In this document: piece by piece, positions 5,590-10,416 of the stretch | How the letters are laid out: each line of letters begins with the position of its first letter | Position numbering within the stretch: position 1 is the first letter of the stretch | Source of the DNA: a virus | DNA: 25,083 bases | IMG/VR virus record: IMGVR_UViG_3300032087_003789 | Location: 1 to 25,083 of that record | Reading direction: 5' to 3' (one strand) | Position numbers and translations under genes: made by a program | Notes under the pieces: model-generated | Database searches by the model: none | What the model saw: the letters and a program-made list of their open reading frames with translations, nothing else | Told to the model about the DNA's origin: nothing

Positions 5590-5604
5590 AGTAAGCCTTT
5601 TTAT

Positions 5605-5745
5605 TCATTGACGTGAATCTGATAAATGTCGTGCATAAATTGCATTTAACCTGCATCTTATTTCCACCAGTTTTTTATGTGCTGCGTAATTCATGCCGCG
5701 TGACTTGAGTTTTATGTAAATTCTGATATTATCTTTCATATGCAT
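5605..5745 (-). CDS. 46-residue basic protein in leftward small-gene cluster
   Basis: An ATG at 5745 follows a good SD (GGAAGGGA, 9 nt upstream). The product is short, basic and helical (IYIKLKSRGMNYAAHKKLVE then IRCRLNAIYARHLSDSRQ) and could be a single HTH or helical-hairpin DNA-binding unit; no family recognised. It is the last of three leftward short genes opposed to the early operon, stopping 16 bp beyond the VRR-NUC stop codon. Its upstream leader shares the 11-mer AACGGAAGGGA with the leader of the exonuclease gene. Evidence for expression is the SD and the clustering only. Confidence 0.5.
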   Translation of the reverse strand: MHMKDNIRIYIKLKSRGMNYAAHKKLVEIRCRLNAIYARHLSDSRQ

Positions 5746-5775
5746 GATAAAATTCCCTTCCGTTTTGTTATGCGC

Positions 5776-5961
5776 TCAATGTATTTTAGCCCGGTTTGTC
5801 CGGGCTTTTTTTATGCCTGCATTTTTTCTGTAATGAACACTGTTCACAAGAGACCTAGGGCATACTTTCAGCTCTCTTGCTATATACTTCCAAGGTATGC
5901 CCATAGTTCTCATTTCCATAGCAAGCGCTATCTCCTGAATTTCTATTTTTTTTGGTTTCAT
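5776..5961 (-). CDS. 61-residue HTH-like protein in leftward small-gene cluster
   Basis: The ATG at 5961 has a strong SD (GGGAGG, 7 nt upstream) and overlaps the stop of the preceding leftward gene (ATGA). The sequence is a compact homeodomain/sigma-like helix set: KKIEIQEIALAMEMRTMG then IPWKYIARELKVCPRSLVNS, where IPWKYIARELKVCPRSL is the probable helix-turn-helix, followed by a basic tail. It is likely a DNA-binding regulator. Its last codons contain the rho-independent terminator that serves the opposing early operon, so coding and termination signals are stacked. Family not named; the HTH call is by pattern. Confidence 0.65.
   Translation of the reverse strand: MKPKKIEIQEIALAMEMRTMGIPWKYIARELKVCPRSLVNSVHYRKNAGIKKARTNRAKIH
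5788..5812 (+). terminator. Rho-independent terminator of the rightward early operon
   Basis: A perfect 7-bp stem AGCCCGG / CCGGGCT (5788-5794 and 5800-5806) with loop TTTGT is followed by a run of seven T (5806-5812). It is oriented for rightward transcription and lies about 200 bp beyond the VRR-NUC gene. In the other direction the stem is followed by AAAATACATT, so it should not stop leftward transcripts. It is embedded in the 3' part of the leftward HTH-like gene. Confidence 0.85.
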
Positions 5962-6056
5962 TTTGACACCTCCCGCTCTCCATCATTAAAACCCCCAAGC
6001 TTATAAATTTTTGATATAGTAAAAGCTATAGGTATAACTACAAATAATTTAATCAT
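5958..6056 (-). CDS. 32-residue hydrophobic peptide, first gene of the leftward cluster
   Basis: The ATG at 6056 is preceded by GAAGGGAGAAAGGAA, a strong SD, and the ORF ends in an ATGA overlap with the HTH-like gene at 5961. The N terminus is one hydrophobic stretch (MIKLFVVIPIAFTI), followed by a polar, acidic tail (GGFNDGEREVSK), so it may be a single-pass membrane peptide or a leader for coupled translation of the HTH gene. The 12-mer TGAAGGGAGAAA in its leader is identical to that before the leftward gene at 8874. Function unknown. Confidence 0.55.
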   Translation of the reverse strand: MIKLFVVIPIAFTISKIYKLGGFNDGEREVSK

Positions 6057-6089
6057 TTCCTTTCTCCCTTCATTTTGCCTTTATTAGTG

Positions 6090-6118
6090 TTGCGATATTC
6101 ACAATAAGCGTATATTAT
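6090..6118 (+). promoter_or_regulatory. Rightward promoter for HTH/primase genes, with overlapping operator (site B)
   Basis: TTGCGA (6090-6095), 17 bp, then TATTAT (6113-6118). The -35 box is the left arm of a 15-bp dyad TTGCGATATTCACAA (6090-6104), so repressor binding would block RNA polymerase. A weaker copy, TTTCGAATTGCACAA (6121-6135), covers the expected start site. The promoter reads into the GTG gene at 6153. Confidence 0.6.
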
Positions 6119-6152
6119 TATTTCGAATTGCACAACCTATAGGAGTATTTTT

Positions 6153-6350
6153 GTGAAAAAAAACCAGGCTGAGATCAGGCGTCTCATGGGGTCACACGAT
6201 GTTAGCAGTAAGCAAGTGGCGGATTTGCTTAAAAAATCGCAGGAGACAATCAATCAATATAGATGCCGTTCCGGCAGATCAATAAGTGACGCTGACTTGT
6301 ATTTTTTGAAGGGGTTACTTGAGATACATTATCCAATTACAGGGAGTTAA
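6153..6350 (+). CDS. Small helix-turn-helix regulator
   Basis: 65 residues from a GTG start with SD AGGAG (6141-6145). The sequence MKKNQAEIRRLMGSHDVSSK then QVADLLKKSQETINQYRCRS is a lone HTH domain: the turn is VSSKQVADLLKKSQETINQYR, the form of Cro/XRE-like and plasmid-type regulators in which the recognition helix carries Gln/Thr/Asn. It lies 3 bp upstream of the primase gene and directly downstream of a promoter carrying TTGnnA-N3-TnnCAA dyads, so it is a good candidate to be the protein that binds them. The fold is likely; the target is inferred from position. Confidence 0.78.
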   Translation: MKKNQAEIRRLMGSHDVSSKQVADLLKKSQETINQYRCRSGRSISDADLYFLKGLLEIHYPITGS

Positions 6351-6353
6351 CGT

Positions 6354-8660
6354 ATGGAATCTAAAGCTGAGAAAATAAAATCATCAGTTGATATAGAAGA
6401 AGTCATAGGAAGATACATTGAGCTAAAAAAGAACGGGCCTGAATATCAAGCATGCTGTCCGTTTCATGAAGAGAAAACACCATCATTTAGCGTGGTGCCT
6501 AACAAGGGATTTTATCACTGCTTTGGCTGCGGTGCTCATGGCGACGTTATTGATTTCGTTATGGAGTACACGAAGTGTTCATACAAAGAAGCGGTTGCGT
6601 CGCTCTCTGATGGCGTGCTTGAAGCCGGTGAGGTCGTGAAGAAGAAGTCTAAGCGCGTGGATCCATACGATCCATACACACCAGTTGCCAAGAATGGAAA
6701 GACTATCAAGCCAGGTCAGCAGGTAAGCCTGATTAATCCAAAACGCGATGGCCAGATCTGGAGGGCTAAGCCTTCAATGGTTCATGATTACGGTCCTCAA
6801 GGCTATGTGTTGCGAATCGATATGGATGACGGCAAGAAGGTCACCCCCATGGTGCGCTGGTGTAACGGGCCAAAAGGCGAAGGCTGGCACTGTTACCCGT
6901 TCGACGAACCGCGTCCGATTTACGGTTACAAGGAAGGCCAAAGTCAGGTTCTGGTCGTTGAAGGTGAGAAGGCGCGTGATGCAATCCAAGCCGTTGCAGG
7001 CGATAAGATCACTGTGGTCTCATGGTCTGGCGGGACCAGCGGCGTCGAGAAAACGGATTGGAGTCCCTTATCAGGAAGAAAGATAATACTGTGGCCAGAC
7101 AACGACAAGCCAGGCTTCAAGGCTATGGCTCACTTGTACGGCTATCTTACAGCTATTGCTGACTCGGTTCGCTTGATCACTCCACCTGAAGGCCTCCCTA
7201 AAGGCTGGGACGGTGCTGATAAAGAATGGTCGAGCGCTCAAGAGCTCTTTGCGTGGTGTAAGGCCAATGCATCGGAGTCGCCCCCAAAGCCAGAATGGCT
7301 CGGTGAAGAGGTGGCATCCGAGCCAGAACCAAAGCCTGAGCAGCAACCTGAGCCACCATTGCCTACAGAGGAGGATTATGGCGCTCCTATGGCTGATGTG
7401 ATTTATCTCGACCAGTATGGAGCGGTTGAAGATAAGCCACCAGCAACGGTTGAGTCATCCGAAAGCTGGAAGGCTGAGCTGATGTTCAAGGATGATGGCG
7501 AAAAGCTAGTAGCCAATGTAAACAATGCTCAGGTGCTCTTGTCGTACCATCCAGATATGAAGGGGGTGCTTGGCTATAACCAGTTCAAGAAAGAGATCGA
7601 GATACGAAAAACGCCAGTCTGGGATACTGAAGGAAAATCGAACTACCCTCGACCTCTTGAAGATGTGGACGACACAAGGGCCACGGCATGGCTTGAGCGA
7701 AAAGGCTGTAAGCTTACGATAGGTACGGTACACAATGCGATAGTATCAGCGGCTCATCACAATCCGTTTAATCCTCTGCAGGACTACCTTCACGGTTTAG
7801 AGTGGGACGGTAAGCCACGACTCAATAGAGCGCTTCATCGGTTGCTTGGCTGCGCTGATAATGAGTATGTCTCTGCCGTATCTCGTCGATTCCTCATCGG
7901 TGCGGTGGCCAGAGCTCTTAATCCAGGCTGTAAAATGGATACGATGTTGATTCTCGAAGGCCAGCAAGGCTTGAAGAAATCCACGGCAGTCGCGGCTCTC
8001 TTTGGTGATGGCTGGTTCACTGATGAGCTCGGTGATCTCGGATCCAAGGATGCAGCTATGCAGGTGCAGGGGATATGGTGTGTTGAAATAGCTGAGCTTG
8101 CAACGATGAATCGAGCTGAGTCTAATCGTATCAAAGAGTGGATCACGCGCCGAATAGATCGCTTCCGTCCTCCGTATGGTCGCAATATCATTTCAGCACC
8201 TCGTCAATGTGTGCTCATTGGCACGGTCAATCCTGAGGGTGGATATTTGAAGGATGCCACTGGTGGCCGACGGTTCTGGCCGGTTGAGTGTACTTCGATC
8301 AATATCGAATGGATCGAGAAATATCGCAATTTGCTATGGGCTGAAGCCGTGCAGGCGTATAAGGACGGCGAGAGATGGTGGTTTGATCACGACGAGCGGC
8401 ACATTGCTGAAGCTGAGCAAGAGCAGCGCTATGAGTCTGATCCTTGGGATGATCGCGTGTCTGACTTCCTGAAGAGTCGTACGACGACCTCTGTGTCAGA
8501 GATAATGGAGACGTGTCTCGATTTGCAGACTTCGAACCAGAACCAGATTGCTCAAAATCGATTAGCAAAGATTCTTCGTATGCACGGATGGAAGAGAAAG
8601 CAGCGTAGGTGGAATGGCGTTAGGCAGTGGGTTTATGTAAATGAGAATCCGGAAGGATAG
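6354..8660 (+). CDS. Primase-helicase: CHC2 zinc finger, TOPRIM and VirE/D5-like ATPase
   Basis: 768 residues; a self-contained replication initiator that should prime and unwind DNA. The N terminus is a DnaG-type CHC2 zinc finger: CPFHEEKTPSF with C35 and H38, then CFGCG with C56 and C59. The middle has a TOPRIM domain: LVVEGEKARDAI (around 200-211) and LWPDNDKPG (around 245-253), carrying the Glu and Asp-x-Asp metal site. After a Pro/Glu-rich linker (about 305-345) comes a virulence-associated-E-like P-loop ATPase: LEGQQGLKKST (about 534-544, Walker A), GIWCVEIAEL (about 573-582, Walker B), and FRPPYGRNIISAPRQCVLIG for later motifs. All key residues seem present. SD GGGAG precedes the ATG. 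No DNA polymerase gene is visible in the window. Confidence 0.95.
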   Translation: MESKAEKIKSSVDIEEVIGRYIELKKNGPEYQACCPFHEEKTPSFSVVPNKGFYHCFGCGAHGDVIDFVMEYTKCSYKEAVASLSDGVLEAGEVVKKKSKRVDPYDPYTPVAKNGKTIKPGQQVSLINPKRDGQIWRAKPSMVHDYGPQGYVLRIDMDDGKKVTPMVRWCNGPKGEGWHCYPFDEPRPIYGYKEGQSQVLVVEGEKARDAIQAVAGDKITVVSWSGGTSGVEKTDWSPLSGRKIILWPDNDKPGFKAMAHLYGYLTAIADSVRLITPPEGLPKGWDGADKEWSSAQELFAWCKANASESPPKPEWLGEEVASEPEPKPEQQPEPPLPTEEDYGAPMADVIYLDQYGAVEDKPPATVESSESWKAELMFKDDGEKLVANVNNAQVLLSYHPDMKGVLGYNQFKKEIEIRKTPVWDTEGKSNYPRPLEDVDDTRATAWLERKGCKLTIGTVHNAIVSAAHHNPFNPLQDYLHGLEWDGKPRLNRALHRLLGCADNEYVSAVSRRFLIGAVARALNPGCKMDTMLILEGQQGLKKSTAVAALFGDGWFTDELGDLGSKDAAMQVQGIWCVEIAELATMNRAESNRIKEWITRRIDRFRPPYGRNIISAPRQCVLIGTVNPEGGYLKDATGGRRFWPVECTSINIEWIEKYRNLLWAEAVQAYKDGERWWFDHDERHIAEAEQEQRYESDPWDDRVSDFLKSRTTTSVSEIMETCLDLQTSNQNQIAQNRLAKILRMHGWKRKQRRWNGVRQWVYVNENPEG

Positions 8661-8765
8661 AAAACGCCCCTTTCGGGGCGCTTGCTTCATGATAAGCGCG
8701 GCAAGCGGCATACATGCCATTACTACGCAGTTTAGCGCGACCAGAGCCATAGTTAATAAAACCAT
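8562..8765 (-). CDS. Short leftward membrane protein; 3' half antisense to primase
   Basis: 67 residues from the ATG at 8765, preceded by SD GGGGAG and one base after the stop of the leftward gene above it. Only the first 26 residues look like protein: MVLLTMALVALNCVVMACMP then LAALIM, a single hydrophobic span. From residue 27 on the frame crosses the terminator hairpin at 8661-8680 and then runs antisense to the primase 3' end, with no protein-like pattern. The leftward transcript may well end before the stop codon. The start is credible; the C terminus is doubtful. Confidence 0.4.
   Translation of the reverse strand: MVLLTMALVALNCVVMACMPLAALIMKQAPRKGRFLSFRILIYINPLPNAIPPTLLSLPSVHTKNLC
8661..8680 (-). 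terminator. Hairpin terminator, best oriented leftward
   Basis: A 6-bp GC stem CGCCCC / GGGGCG (8665-8670, 8675-8680) sits immediately after the primase stop. Read on the minus strand it has a GAAA tetraloop and is followed by TTTTC, the form of an efficient terminator. Read rightward, the stem is followed by CTTGCTTC, a poor U-tract. It may work in both directions with different strength. Confidence 0.65.
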
Positions 8766-8766
8766 T

Positions 8767-8874
8767 TTACTCCCCTGTATTGTCCGTTATTCCATCAACG
8801 CCAAGCATGATACATATCGCTACTGCTGACATAGTAACTGCTATCCTTGCCGTTATTTTAATCATTTTAAACAT
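8767..8874 (-). CDS. 35-residue hydrophobic peptide, leftward
   Basis: The ATG at 8874 is preceded by TGAAGGGAGAAAAATC with a strong SD. The product is basic at its N terminus (MFKMIKITAR), has one hydrophobic span (IAVTMSAVAICIMLGV) and a short acidic tail, the inside-positive layout of a small inner-membrane protein. It is followed after one base by a second short leftward ORF. The 12-mer around its SD is identical to the one upstream of the peptide gene at 6056, suggesting a shared origin of the leaders. Function unknown. Confidence 0.5.
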   Translation of the reverse strand: MFKMIKITARIAVTMSAVAICIMLGVDGITDNTGE

Positions 8875-8944
8875 GATTTTTCTCCCTTCAGGTTTATGTT
8901 TACTGCGTCATATTCTCAAGTGTGGGGCATTATTAGAAAAAAGG

Positions 8945-8973
8945 TAAATATCGTTTTGTAATAATAGCAACAA
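8945..8973 (-). promoter_or_regulatory. Candidate leftward promoter with overlapping dyad (site D)
   Basis: On the minus strand TTGTTG (complement of 8968-8973) is followed after 17 bp by TATTTA (complement of 8945-8950), about 70 bp upstream of the leftward peptide gene. The dyad TTGTAATAATAGCAA (8956-8970) overlaps its -35 box and matches the TTGnnA-N3-TnnCAA pattern. Only sequence form supports this. Confidence 0.4.
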
Positions 8974-8995
8974 TTTTTATAGCCGTACTTTTTTT

Positions 8996-9182
8996 GGTGA
9001 TATCACTACGCCTATAGTGGCACCTTAAAGGCAACGTATAATCGCATTTCTATTATCTTGCAAACTGAGTGGTGACAGTGGTGATACTGGTTATTGGTAG
9101 TGGTGATTGGTGACATATACTGGTTATAGCAAAGCCCTTACCGCTCTAGGCGAGAACTACTATAACCACTATAACCAGTATA
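8996..9182 (+). repeat. Noncoding repeat-rich control or origin-like region
   Basis: No gene is visible from 8875 to 9297. This part holds: the palindrome GTGATATCAC (8997-9006); GTGGTGA three times (9069, 9078, 9100); ATACTGGTTAT twice (9084-9094, 9117-9127); a perfect 14-bp inverted pair TATACTGGTTATAG (9116-9129) and CTATAACCAGTATA (9169-9182) around a 39-bp spacer; and ACTATAACC in tandem (9159, 9168). GGTGA(C/T) occurs five times here and once more at 9276. A strongly A+T-rich stretch (9181-9240) follows. Iterons beside A+T-rich DNA and a primase gene fit a replication origin, but a multi-operator control region is equally possible. Confidence 0.6.
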
Positions 9183-9201
9183 AAGTATATATAATATAAT
9201 A

Positions 9202-9230
9202 TTGATATATAATACAGTTAACTGTATAGT
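9202..9230 (+). promoter_or_regulatory. Rightward promoter enclosing a 16-bp perfect palindrome
   Basis: TTGATA (9202-9207), 17-bp spacer, TATAGT (9225-9230). The spacer and -10 box contain ATACAGTTAACTGTAT (9212-9227), a perfect palindrome, which is a textbook operator position. It would drive the HNH-like gene at 9298 and possibly the terminase block. A weaker alternative promoter is TTGGTA-16-TATACT at 9094-9121. Confidence 0.6.
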
Positions 9231-9297
9231 TATATTGTTTTTTAAAAAGTGTGGGAAAAAATTTTCCTGGGTACTGGTGACATATAAGGAGTTCAAA

Positions 9298-9741
9298 ATG
9301 TATACAGACCACATTGATGAGTTAATTGAATATGATTCTGAGACCGGGGAGTTCTTCTGGAAGGAATCTGTTAAGTATGGGAACAGATGTAAACCTGTGG
9401 GCGGCTATGCCGGTTCTTACAATGATAACGGGCACAAATACATAGGCATCAACGGAAAGCAGCTAATAGCTACCAAGATAGCTTGGTATAAAATGCGAGG
9501 GATCTGGCCTAATTTCAATCTTACTTACAAAGATGGTGATATGACCAATTTCAGATGGAATAATATAATTCCTTCTAAGTTTTGGAATGATAAGATTTTA
9601 AAATCAGCGTCAGCCACTCCTGGGATTTATGTCACGCATGACGGCTGGTTTGCCAAGCTCCGCAATGGGGGCTCAATAGGGCCGTACGCGAAACCGCATC
9701 TAGCGCATAATGCTCGAATTGCTTTCTCGCTTTCTGGTTGA
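9298..9741 (+). CDS. HNH-endonuclease-like protein lacking the catalytic histidines
   Basis: 147 residues from the ATG at 9298 (SD AAGGAG, 9286-9291). It follows the layout of phage HNH endonucleases: an N-terminal YDSETGEFFWKE, then GGYAGSYNDNGHKYIGINGK, the AW helix (ATKIAWYKMRGIWP), a LTYKDGDMTNFRWNNI segment, and a C-terminal AP2-like piece (GIYVTHDGWFAKL to ARIAFSLSG). In active members the two central blocks normally read AHRLAW and a His-containing DHxxGD; here they read ATKIAW and LTYKDGD, so both histidines are missing while the Asn-x-Arg part stays. It is probably a catalytically dead relative kept for DNA binding, or a decaying mobile nuclease. It sits between the repeat region and the terminase genes. 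Confidence 0.75.
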   Translation: MYTDHIDELIEYDSETGEFFWKESVKYGNRCKPVGGYAGSYNDNGHKYIGINGKQLIATKIAWYKMRGIWPNFNLTYKDGDMTNFRWNNIIPSKFWNDKILKSASATPGIYVTHDGWFAKLRNGGSIGPYAKPHLAHNARIAFSLSG

Positions 9742-9770
9742 CAAATTCTCAAAATGGCTCACAATTGTGA
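9738..9770 (+). promoter_or_regulatory. Candidate promoter/operator with site E and TCACAATTGTGA palindrome
   Basis: TTGACA (9738-9743) overlaps the HNH-like stop codon and begins the dyad TTGACAAATTCTCAA (9738-9752), another TTGnnA-N3-TnnCAA match. Seventeen bp later lies ACAATT (9761-9766), a weak -10, inside the perfect 12-bp palindrome TCACAATTGTGA (9759-9770). Transcription would begin near 9772, where an ATG of the next gene lies. Confidence 0.4.
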
Positions 9771-10416
9771 TATGAGCAAAAACCTATCCCCGAAGAAAAA
9801 ACTTACCCCTAAGCAGCAGCGTTTCGTTGAGGAATATTTAATCGACCTCAATGCGACGCAGGCTGCTATTCGGGCTGGGTATTCTGCAAATGATGAACCG
9901 CCTAAAGATAATTACTACACTTACGCCTTGATATGCCCCCAGTTGAATGATGTTTTTTACATAGGCAAAGGCAGAGGTAGAAGGGTTTTTGATCATGAAA
10001 GACAGCTGAAATCTCCGATGAAGTGCAATCAAGATAAGCTTCGAAGGATAGCGGCCATAAAACTGGCGAATATGGAGTTGAGACACCTGATACTATCAGA
10101 GCACTCATCGGAATCAGAATCATACGAAGCTGAGTCCGAGTTGATTGCTTCGATAGGAATCGAAAATTTGACGAACATATCTTTAGTTGAATCAAGGTCG
10201 TCCAGATCTTTAAGTAACGAATGGCGTTACTTGCCTGAATTGCAAAAGTATGATTCCCGCTCTGATTGGGCGAGCGTGTGCTTAAGTATGCTTGAGCCTT
10301 TCAAGGGTGAAATTATGTTTCTCGGTCAGCTTCTTTCTGATGAGAGTCAATATCTTTTGCTTGGCTTGCTTCGAGGTATAGCAAGAGAAAAACCAGCAAC
10401 AAACTGTCTATTTTAG
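9754..10416 (+). CDS. Chimera: small-terminase N-terminal HTH fused to GIY-YIG nuclease
   Basis: 220 residues. Residues 17-45 (KLTPKQQRFVEEYLIDLNAT then QAAIRAGYSA) are the diagnostic N terminus of Terminase_2-type small terminase subunits. At about residue 53 the sequence changes abruptly to a GIY-YIG domain of the LEM-3-like kind: YYTYALI (54-60), FYIGKGRGRRVFDH (68-81), YEAESELIASIG (124-135), ENLTNI (137-142). The Tyr, Arg, His and catalytic Glu positions all look intact, so it may cut DNA. Residues 146-220 are not recognised and do not look like the rest of a small terminase. The start may be the ATG at 9754 or at 9772; neither has an SD. It may be a homing endonuclease lodged in terS or an endonuclease using the TerS HTH as its DNA-binding arm. 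Confidence 0.85.
   Translation: MAHNCDMSKNLSPKKKLTPKQQRFVEEYLIDLNATQAAIRAGYSANDEPPKDNYYTYALICPQLNDVFYIGKGRGRRVFDHERQLKSPMKCNQDKLRRIAAIKLANMELRHLILSEHSSESESYEAESELIASIGIENLTNISLVESRSSRSLSNEWRYLPELQKYDSRSDWASVCLSMLEPFKGEIMFLGQLLSDESQYLLLGLLRGIAREKPATNCLF

Follow-up and report, generated by a model that had tools for sequence, protein, structure and literature searches.

Iteron origins of the SaPI/PICI type are known already: iterons and an AT-rich region lie 3' of the gene encoding the initiator helicase, Rep or Pri-Rep (excerpts of PMC7581432 and PMC6092414). As far as the consulted parts of these papers go, the C-terminal domains of SaPI Rep and of Cch2 recognise iterons just 3' of the gene (PMC7581432), and in E. 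coli PICI origins the AT-rich region is always flanked by two sets of iterons (PMC6092414). For Cch2 of SCCmec, a non-phage element with a separate primase, the excerpts describe a putative origin with three short iterons, direct repeats located 3' of the helicase gene and bound by the C-terminal domain of its product (PMC7581432). Single features recur in two further systems, described in excerpts of PMC4234260. In P4 alpha, considered here by that description, a TOPRIM primase and a helicase are combined in one protein, and a winged helix binds the origin repeats. The origin of pRN1 is non-coding, essential and located 3' of the gene for the replication protein; in those excerpts it is a stem-loop in which its authors found no iterons, and a stem-loop origin of this kind is proposed for several bacteriophages too.

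Among phages, a 302-base non-coding origin is annotated in Streptococcus phage Sfi21 (NC_000872), located 3' of a putative primase gene and taken here from the record annotation alone. Iterons with the word TGGTTACT surround an A+T-rich core directly 3' of this gene, an arrangement that resembles the locus described here. The Sfi21 gene product belongs to DUF5906/Pox_D5 and not to VapE, and the iteron arrangement is therefore not confined to VapE proteins.

The window, i.e. the whole stretch of DNA analysed here, is a virus record from IMG/VR of 25,083 bases and represents a 25-kb fragment. It shares with the SaPI/PICI origins the combination of iterons and an A+T-rich region 3' of a gene for a putative initiator helicase, and with the SCCmec system a C-terminal helicase domain, predicted here as a winged helix, that may bind such repeats. 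Unlike the SaPI/PICI elements, it is a replicon that itself encodes terminase, portal and further structural proteins, its array lies 0.4 kb from the gene and is asymmetric, and the proposed initiator also carries a CHC2-TOPRIM primase. We consider it probable that this array is a cis-acting iteron origin and that the VapE primase-helicase encoded by the phage itself reads it (Table 1).

Table 1. Features of the candidate origin and its proposed initiator in the window
Feature	Position	Strand	Basis or detail
Small gene directly upstream of the primase-helicase gene	6153..6350	+	Matches a family of phage repressors weakly (PHROG E 0.0006)
Primase-helicase (CHC2 zinc ribbon - TOPRIM - VapE domain), proposed initiator	6354..8660	+	Family profiles; fold match 7pds
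Predicted C-terminal winged-helix domain, proposed iteron reader	8442..8639	+	Model residues 333-398
Weak outlying match TTTGGTGATAT	8993..9003	+	8.9 bits vs 12.4-15.9 for the nine other copies (9068-9283), from which the scoring matrix itself was built
Six direct iterons	9068..9129	+	9068-9078 AGTGGTGACAG, 9077-9087 AGTGGTGATAC, 9086-9096 ACTGGTTATTG, 9099-9109 AGTGGTGATTG, 9106-9116 ATTGGTGACAT, 9119-9129 ACTGGTTATAG
Perfect 14-base inverted repeat (one direct and one inverted iteron)	9116-9129 / 9169-9182		39 bases between the arms
Two inverted iterons	9160..9179	-	Minus-strand reading: 9160-9170 AGTGGTTATAG, 9169-9179 ACTGGTTATAG
A+T-rich tract, candidate unwinding element	9183..9246		87.5% A+T; unwinding inferred
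Perfect 16-base palindrome ATACAGTTAACTGTAT, operator-like	9212..9227		Within the A+T-rich tract; no second copy in the window when as many as 3 mismatches are allowed
Ninth iteron ACTGGTGACAT	9273..9283	+	Beyond the A+T-rich tract, just ahead of the HNH gene

Gene setting and the primase-helicase

Protein-family searches identified genes for a CI-like repressor, an SSL2-like helicase, a VRR-NUC protein, the small protein with the weak repressor match, the CHC2-TOPRIM-VapE primase-helicase, an HNH protein, TerS, TerL and portal. The small protein shows 36% identity over 47 residues to its counterpart in a related record (L002), and the HNH gene starts at an ATG at 9298, as judged by eye. In the primase-helicase the VapE-like domain matches PF05272 with 273 bits, where the cut-off is 25, and the TOPRIM match stays below Pfam's cut-off.

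In the structural model of the VapE part (mean pLDDT 85.6), the C-terminus consists of a helix and a short strand followed by a pair of helices and a pair of strands, an order that predicts a winged helix. Its best fold match by far is PriRep1 with double-stranded DNA (7pds; Z 32.6, 391 residues aligned, 27% identity), followed at a distance by a match of Z 14.3. The VapE-part profile likewise matches PriRep1 and no other PDB sequence at E 0.01 or better, and the PDB deposit of PriRep1 is entitled 'Similar to D. nodosus vapE'. We take PriRep1 to be a staphylococcal island protein, and 7pds is presumably the structure from the PriRep1 paper of Qiao et al. 2022.

Some further observations were made in this part of the window. 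Left of the array, at 8562-8874, lie short minus-strand ORFs (35 and 67 aa) with leaders resembling ribosome-binding sites; by eye they cross a hairpin at 8665-8680, where the terminator scan lists no terminator. The segments 6048-6072 and 8866-8890, located in the two non-coding gaps that flank the primase gene, are 80% alike and by eye correspond to the starts of leftward small ORFs. In the gene at 9754-10416, the N-terminus of TerS (about 46 residues, Terminase_2) continues in frame into a GIY-YIG domain. TerS of G003, the nearest complete relative, has 187 aa and matches nearly the whole family, and it therefore seems that a homing endonuclease was inserted in the TerS gene of the window.

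The iteron array and the adjacent A+T-rich tract

The earlier note had described several kinds of repeats at 8996-9182. An exact search of 8600-9320 located every one of them: TATACTGGTTATAG at 9116 and its inverse CTATAACCAGTATA at 9169, with 39 bases between, an extra ATACTGGTTAT at 9084, tandem ACTATAACC at 9159 and 9168, three copies of GTGGTGA (9069, 9078 and 9100) and six of GGTGA[CT] (8996, 9071, 9080, 9102, 9109 and 9276), the last of which falls outside 8996-9182. Their iteron-like character was borne out, but they do not represent several kinds, as the repeats in 8661-9297 are variants of a single word, A[C/G]TGGT[G/T]A[C/T]A, present in nine copies, seven direct and two inverted. 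The layout of six direct, two inverted and one distal copy is less mirrored than in several relatives. The array starts 407 bases past the end of the VapE gene, with small minus-strand ORFs in between, and it lies after the primase-helicase gene and before an A+T-rich tract, as had been noted. Judged by the ORF list, the statement that no gene explains the structure is also correct for 8996-9182.

The repeats in 8661-9297 are beyond chance. Word clusters were located by a scan that takes, for each 300-base window, the best eight-letter word on both strands with one mismatch allowed. No cluster in the 25 kb is stronger than the array, which scores 9.2 against 5.4 for the next. With the word not preset, this score for 9021-9320 was reached by none of 500 shuffles (largest 4.8); when plain copies were counted instead, one of 500 shuffles reached 8. 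The exact word TGGTKAYA occurs eight times in 8661-9297, compared to a mean of 0.15 and a maximum of 3 in 2000 shuffles. Nucleotide similarity searches of 8661-9760 against phage records gave no match, nor did the exact paired-arm pattern in IMG/VR or Rfam at gathering thresholds. As for a DnaA-dependent origin, TTATCCACA with at most one mismatch has four matches in the window, none of them between 4498 and 12606, and this candidate was rejected.

The longest exact inverted repeat in 8661-9297, 14 bases, is perfect and far above chance, since none of 200 dinucleotide shuffles reached this length (largest 12). This repeat, rather than the words, could be the functional unit, as a hairpin or cruciform signal comparable to the stem-loop origin that lies 3' of the replication gene in pRN1 and that, according to the same excerpts, has its proposed equivalents in bacteriophages (PMC4234260). 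We regard this as very improbable, as the advantage of the region over shuffles in single-stranded DNA folding is slight (z -1.76; 8 of 200) and the alignment with the counterpart in G003 shows a gap at the first arm and a changed second arm.

The A+T-rich tract adjoins the array, with only one word (9273) on its far side, and contains the least stable 60-mer of the whole window (9186-9245). The GC-skew check that had been suggested revealed a small dip, to -0.01, with positive values on both sides of 9 kb and no change of sign. This neither supports nor refutes an origin, because gene strand confounds the skew and the record is a 25-kb fragment; for the latter reason a second origin elsewhere is also possible.

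The surroundings of the tract also bear on a regulatory function, in which the words would bind a phage regulator and the array would be an operator or activator region controlling the HNH, TerS and TerL genes to its right and possibly also the small ORFs that run leftward. The divergent gene arrangement fits such a role, as do the overlap of the word at 9273-9283 with the leader of the HNH gene and the small gene with a weak repressor-family match that precedes the primase. Promoter-like hexamers at 9202-9230 match at 10 of 12 positions, yet the region holds six of these against 4.2 in shuffles. Eight of the 14 exact TGGTKAYA sites of the window are concentrated at 8995-9275, whereas none occurs in the gap between the repressor and early genes (2485-2935) or at 5600-6150. 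This distribution argues against an operator array, which we consider unlikely.

Word clusters near VapE genes in other genomes

Sfi21 served as a positive control for the scan: the highest-scoring cluster in the 12 kb analysed falls exactly at the annotated origin, with the word TGGTTACT and a score of 7.6 against 3.6. The scan was applied to three sets of VapE loci. Set A, the discovery set, consists of the window and 15 records and includes loci whose 3' regions had been read beforehand. The rank-1 cluster lies at most 650 bases after the VapE domain in 10 of the 16, and six of these ten share one related word group. Among the six misses, G002 and G003 represent one genome; two more have the cluster in second place, G001 at +2.1 kb, behind a repeated stretch inside an ORF, and G014 at +0.24 kb.

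Set B comprises annotated records of 19 phages and of a single satellite phage, 20 in all, that were hand-picked for host variety before their 3' regions were seen; for W04, W05, W09 and W15 the last bases were left out of the scan. The rank-1 cluster falls within -20 to +400 of the CDS end in half of them, the satellite phage included. In the others it was found 1.95 and 2.8 kb downstream (two records) or upstream of the gene (one), while in one record the near cluster has rank 3-4 and in six no near cluster ranks above fifth.

An alignment search found at least 598 relatives, and set C was derived from the 80 that matched best, viral contigs in which phages and satellites were not separated. 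After removal of 3 loci with short flanks and 38 redundant loci (80% identity), 39 were kept, with an overlap with set A of at least two records (L229 is G004 and L259 is G006). The top cluster lies within -150 to +1000 bases of the CDS end in 28 of the 39, compared to 4.2 expected if placement along each locus is assumed to be uniform, and five of these 28 score below 8. No near rank-1 cluster was found for the other 11, as for 10 of 20 in set B. Clusters scoring at least 8 follow 23 of 39 VapE genes, but only one of 259 other ORFs of at least 250 codons, which were defined from stop to stop and so may include non-gene frames. In the 300 bases directly past the VapE gene, 17 of 39 real segments reach a score of 8, against none of 390 shuffles. 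That clusters follow VapE genes in other phage sequences argues further against an operator function and suggests that the arrangement is shared among phages with VapE proteins.

Within the zone searched (-20 to +700 or +1000), 45 arrays, including the window's own and one duplicate record, start at either -20 to +61 or +280 to +407 from the gene. Among 44 VapE-linked arrays, 25 coincide with the weakest 40-mer of the locus and 40 with one of the weakest 2% of 40-mers, compared to 1.5 and 13.4 expected by random placement. Part of this A+T signal is common to non-coding DNA, since in 30 VapE loci lacking an array the weakest 40-mer lies just past the gene in 3 and one of the weakest 2% in 16. 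A code linking the word to the C-terminal domain was also considered. Word similarity tracks the identity of this domain over the 44 arrays (rho 0.33, reached by none of 2000 permutations), but among 22 divergent representatives (below 60% core identity) the correlation is not significant (rho 0.11, 122 of 2000), and such a code is therefore not claimed here.

Relatives of the phage and the terminase genes

G003 (62% identity in the primase and 52% in the portal protein; its ends join through G002) has no cluster after its VapE gene at the settings tried. A non-coding stretch that aligns with that of the window is located 5 kb from VapE, directly before TerS, and holds the weakest 60-mer of the genome. 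It contains only two matches of at least 7 bits to the word of the window, ACTAGTGAT[AC]G, and some copies resembling TGGTGCAG. Other scan settings revealed in G003 only a nine-base tandem repeat (CCAGATAGA/CCAGATAGG) near 27976 (locus L127), which is in frame by eye. The L002 record has RecT, helicase, VRR and primase in common with the window and carries TGGTCA words around an A+T core after the replication module, together with a terminase of the gpA type.

The counterpart in G003 indicates that the element stays beside TerS in this phage group, and it may therefore still have a role in packaging or as a late promoter; its position ahead of the late genes likewise fits an operator array. 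As a packaging site (cos or pac), the words would be TerS-binding repeats close to the HNH, TerS and TerL genes. The order in the window, where these three genes follow the array, agrees with this, as do the position in G003, directly before TerS and away from VapE, and the array in L002, about 1.8 kb from the large-terminase gene. On the other hand, L002 has a terminase from a different family and still retains words of the TGGT type, and when the two top clusters were taken for each of ten loci of TerL relatives, some of which have little upstream DNA, none scoring at least 8 lay beside TerL. Furthermore, nine of the ten set-B records with a rank-1 VapE-linked cluster have no terminase annotated within 2.5 kb on each side of the VapE match, though hypothetical genes could hide one. 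We consider a packaging site improbable, and because of these last two findings an origin is ranked first. One of the TerL relatives, L106, has a strong word cluster (GTTTCCGG, score 11.0) about 2.6 kb before TerL.

Proposed function and implications

We favour an origin because word clusters recur 3' of VapE genes, the least stable 60-mer adjoins the array and the scan recovers the annotated origin of Sfi21, and on these sequence-based grounds the possible origin of the earlier note is supported. We infer the following order of events at such an origin. The winged helix at the C-terminus of the primase-helicase would bind the A[C/G]TGGT[G/T]A[C/T]A words, on which hexamers of the protein would assemble; the tract at 9183-9246 would then melt, the VapE motor would load onto the single strands, and the CHC2-TOPRIM part would prime synthesis, so that the origin fires.

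With somewhat less assurance, we lean towards the view that VapE primase-helicases act throughout the tailed phages as self-loading initiators. Each would have an iteron origin of the PICI type 3' of the gene that encodes it, and the C-terminal winged helix would read a word specific to the lineage. A search of the open-licence literature found no paper that states a VapE-linked iteron origin in phages, which is a weak negative. The annotated origin of Sfi21 already resembles the VapE-linked arrangement, and what is worth testing is the breadth of the rule among phages. To our knowledge, most tailed phages lack a known replication origin. Searching the DNA 3' of VapE genes for a single word that recurs on both strands next to weak DNA is a simple rule that would provide testable origin candidates in many genomes.
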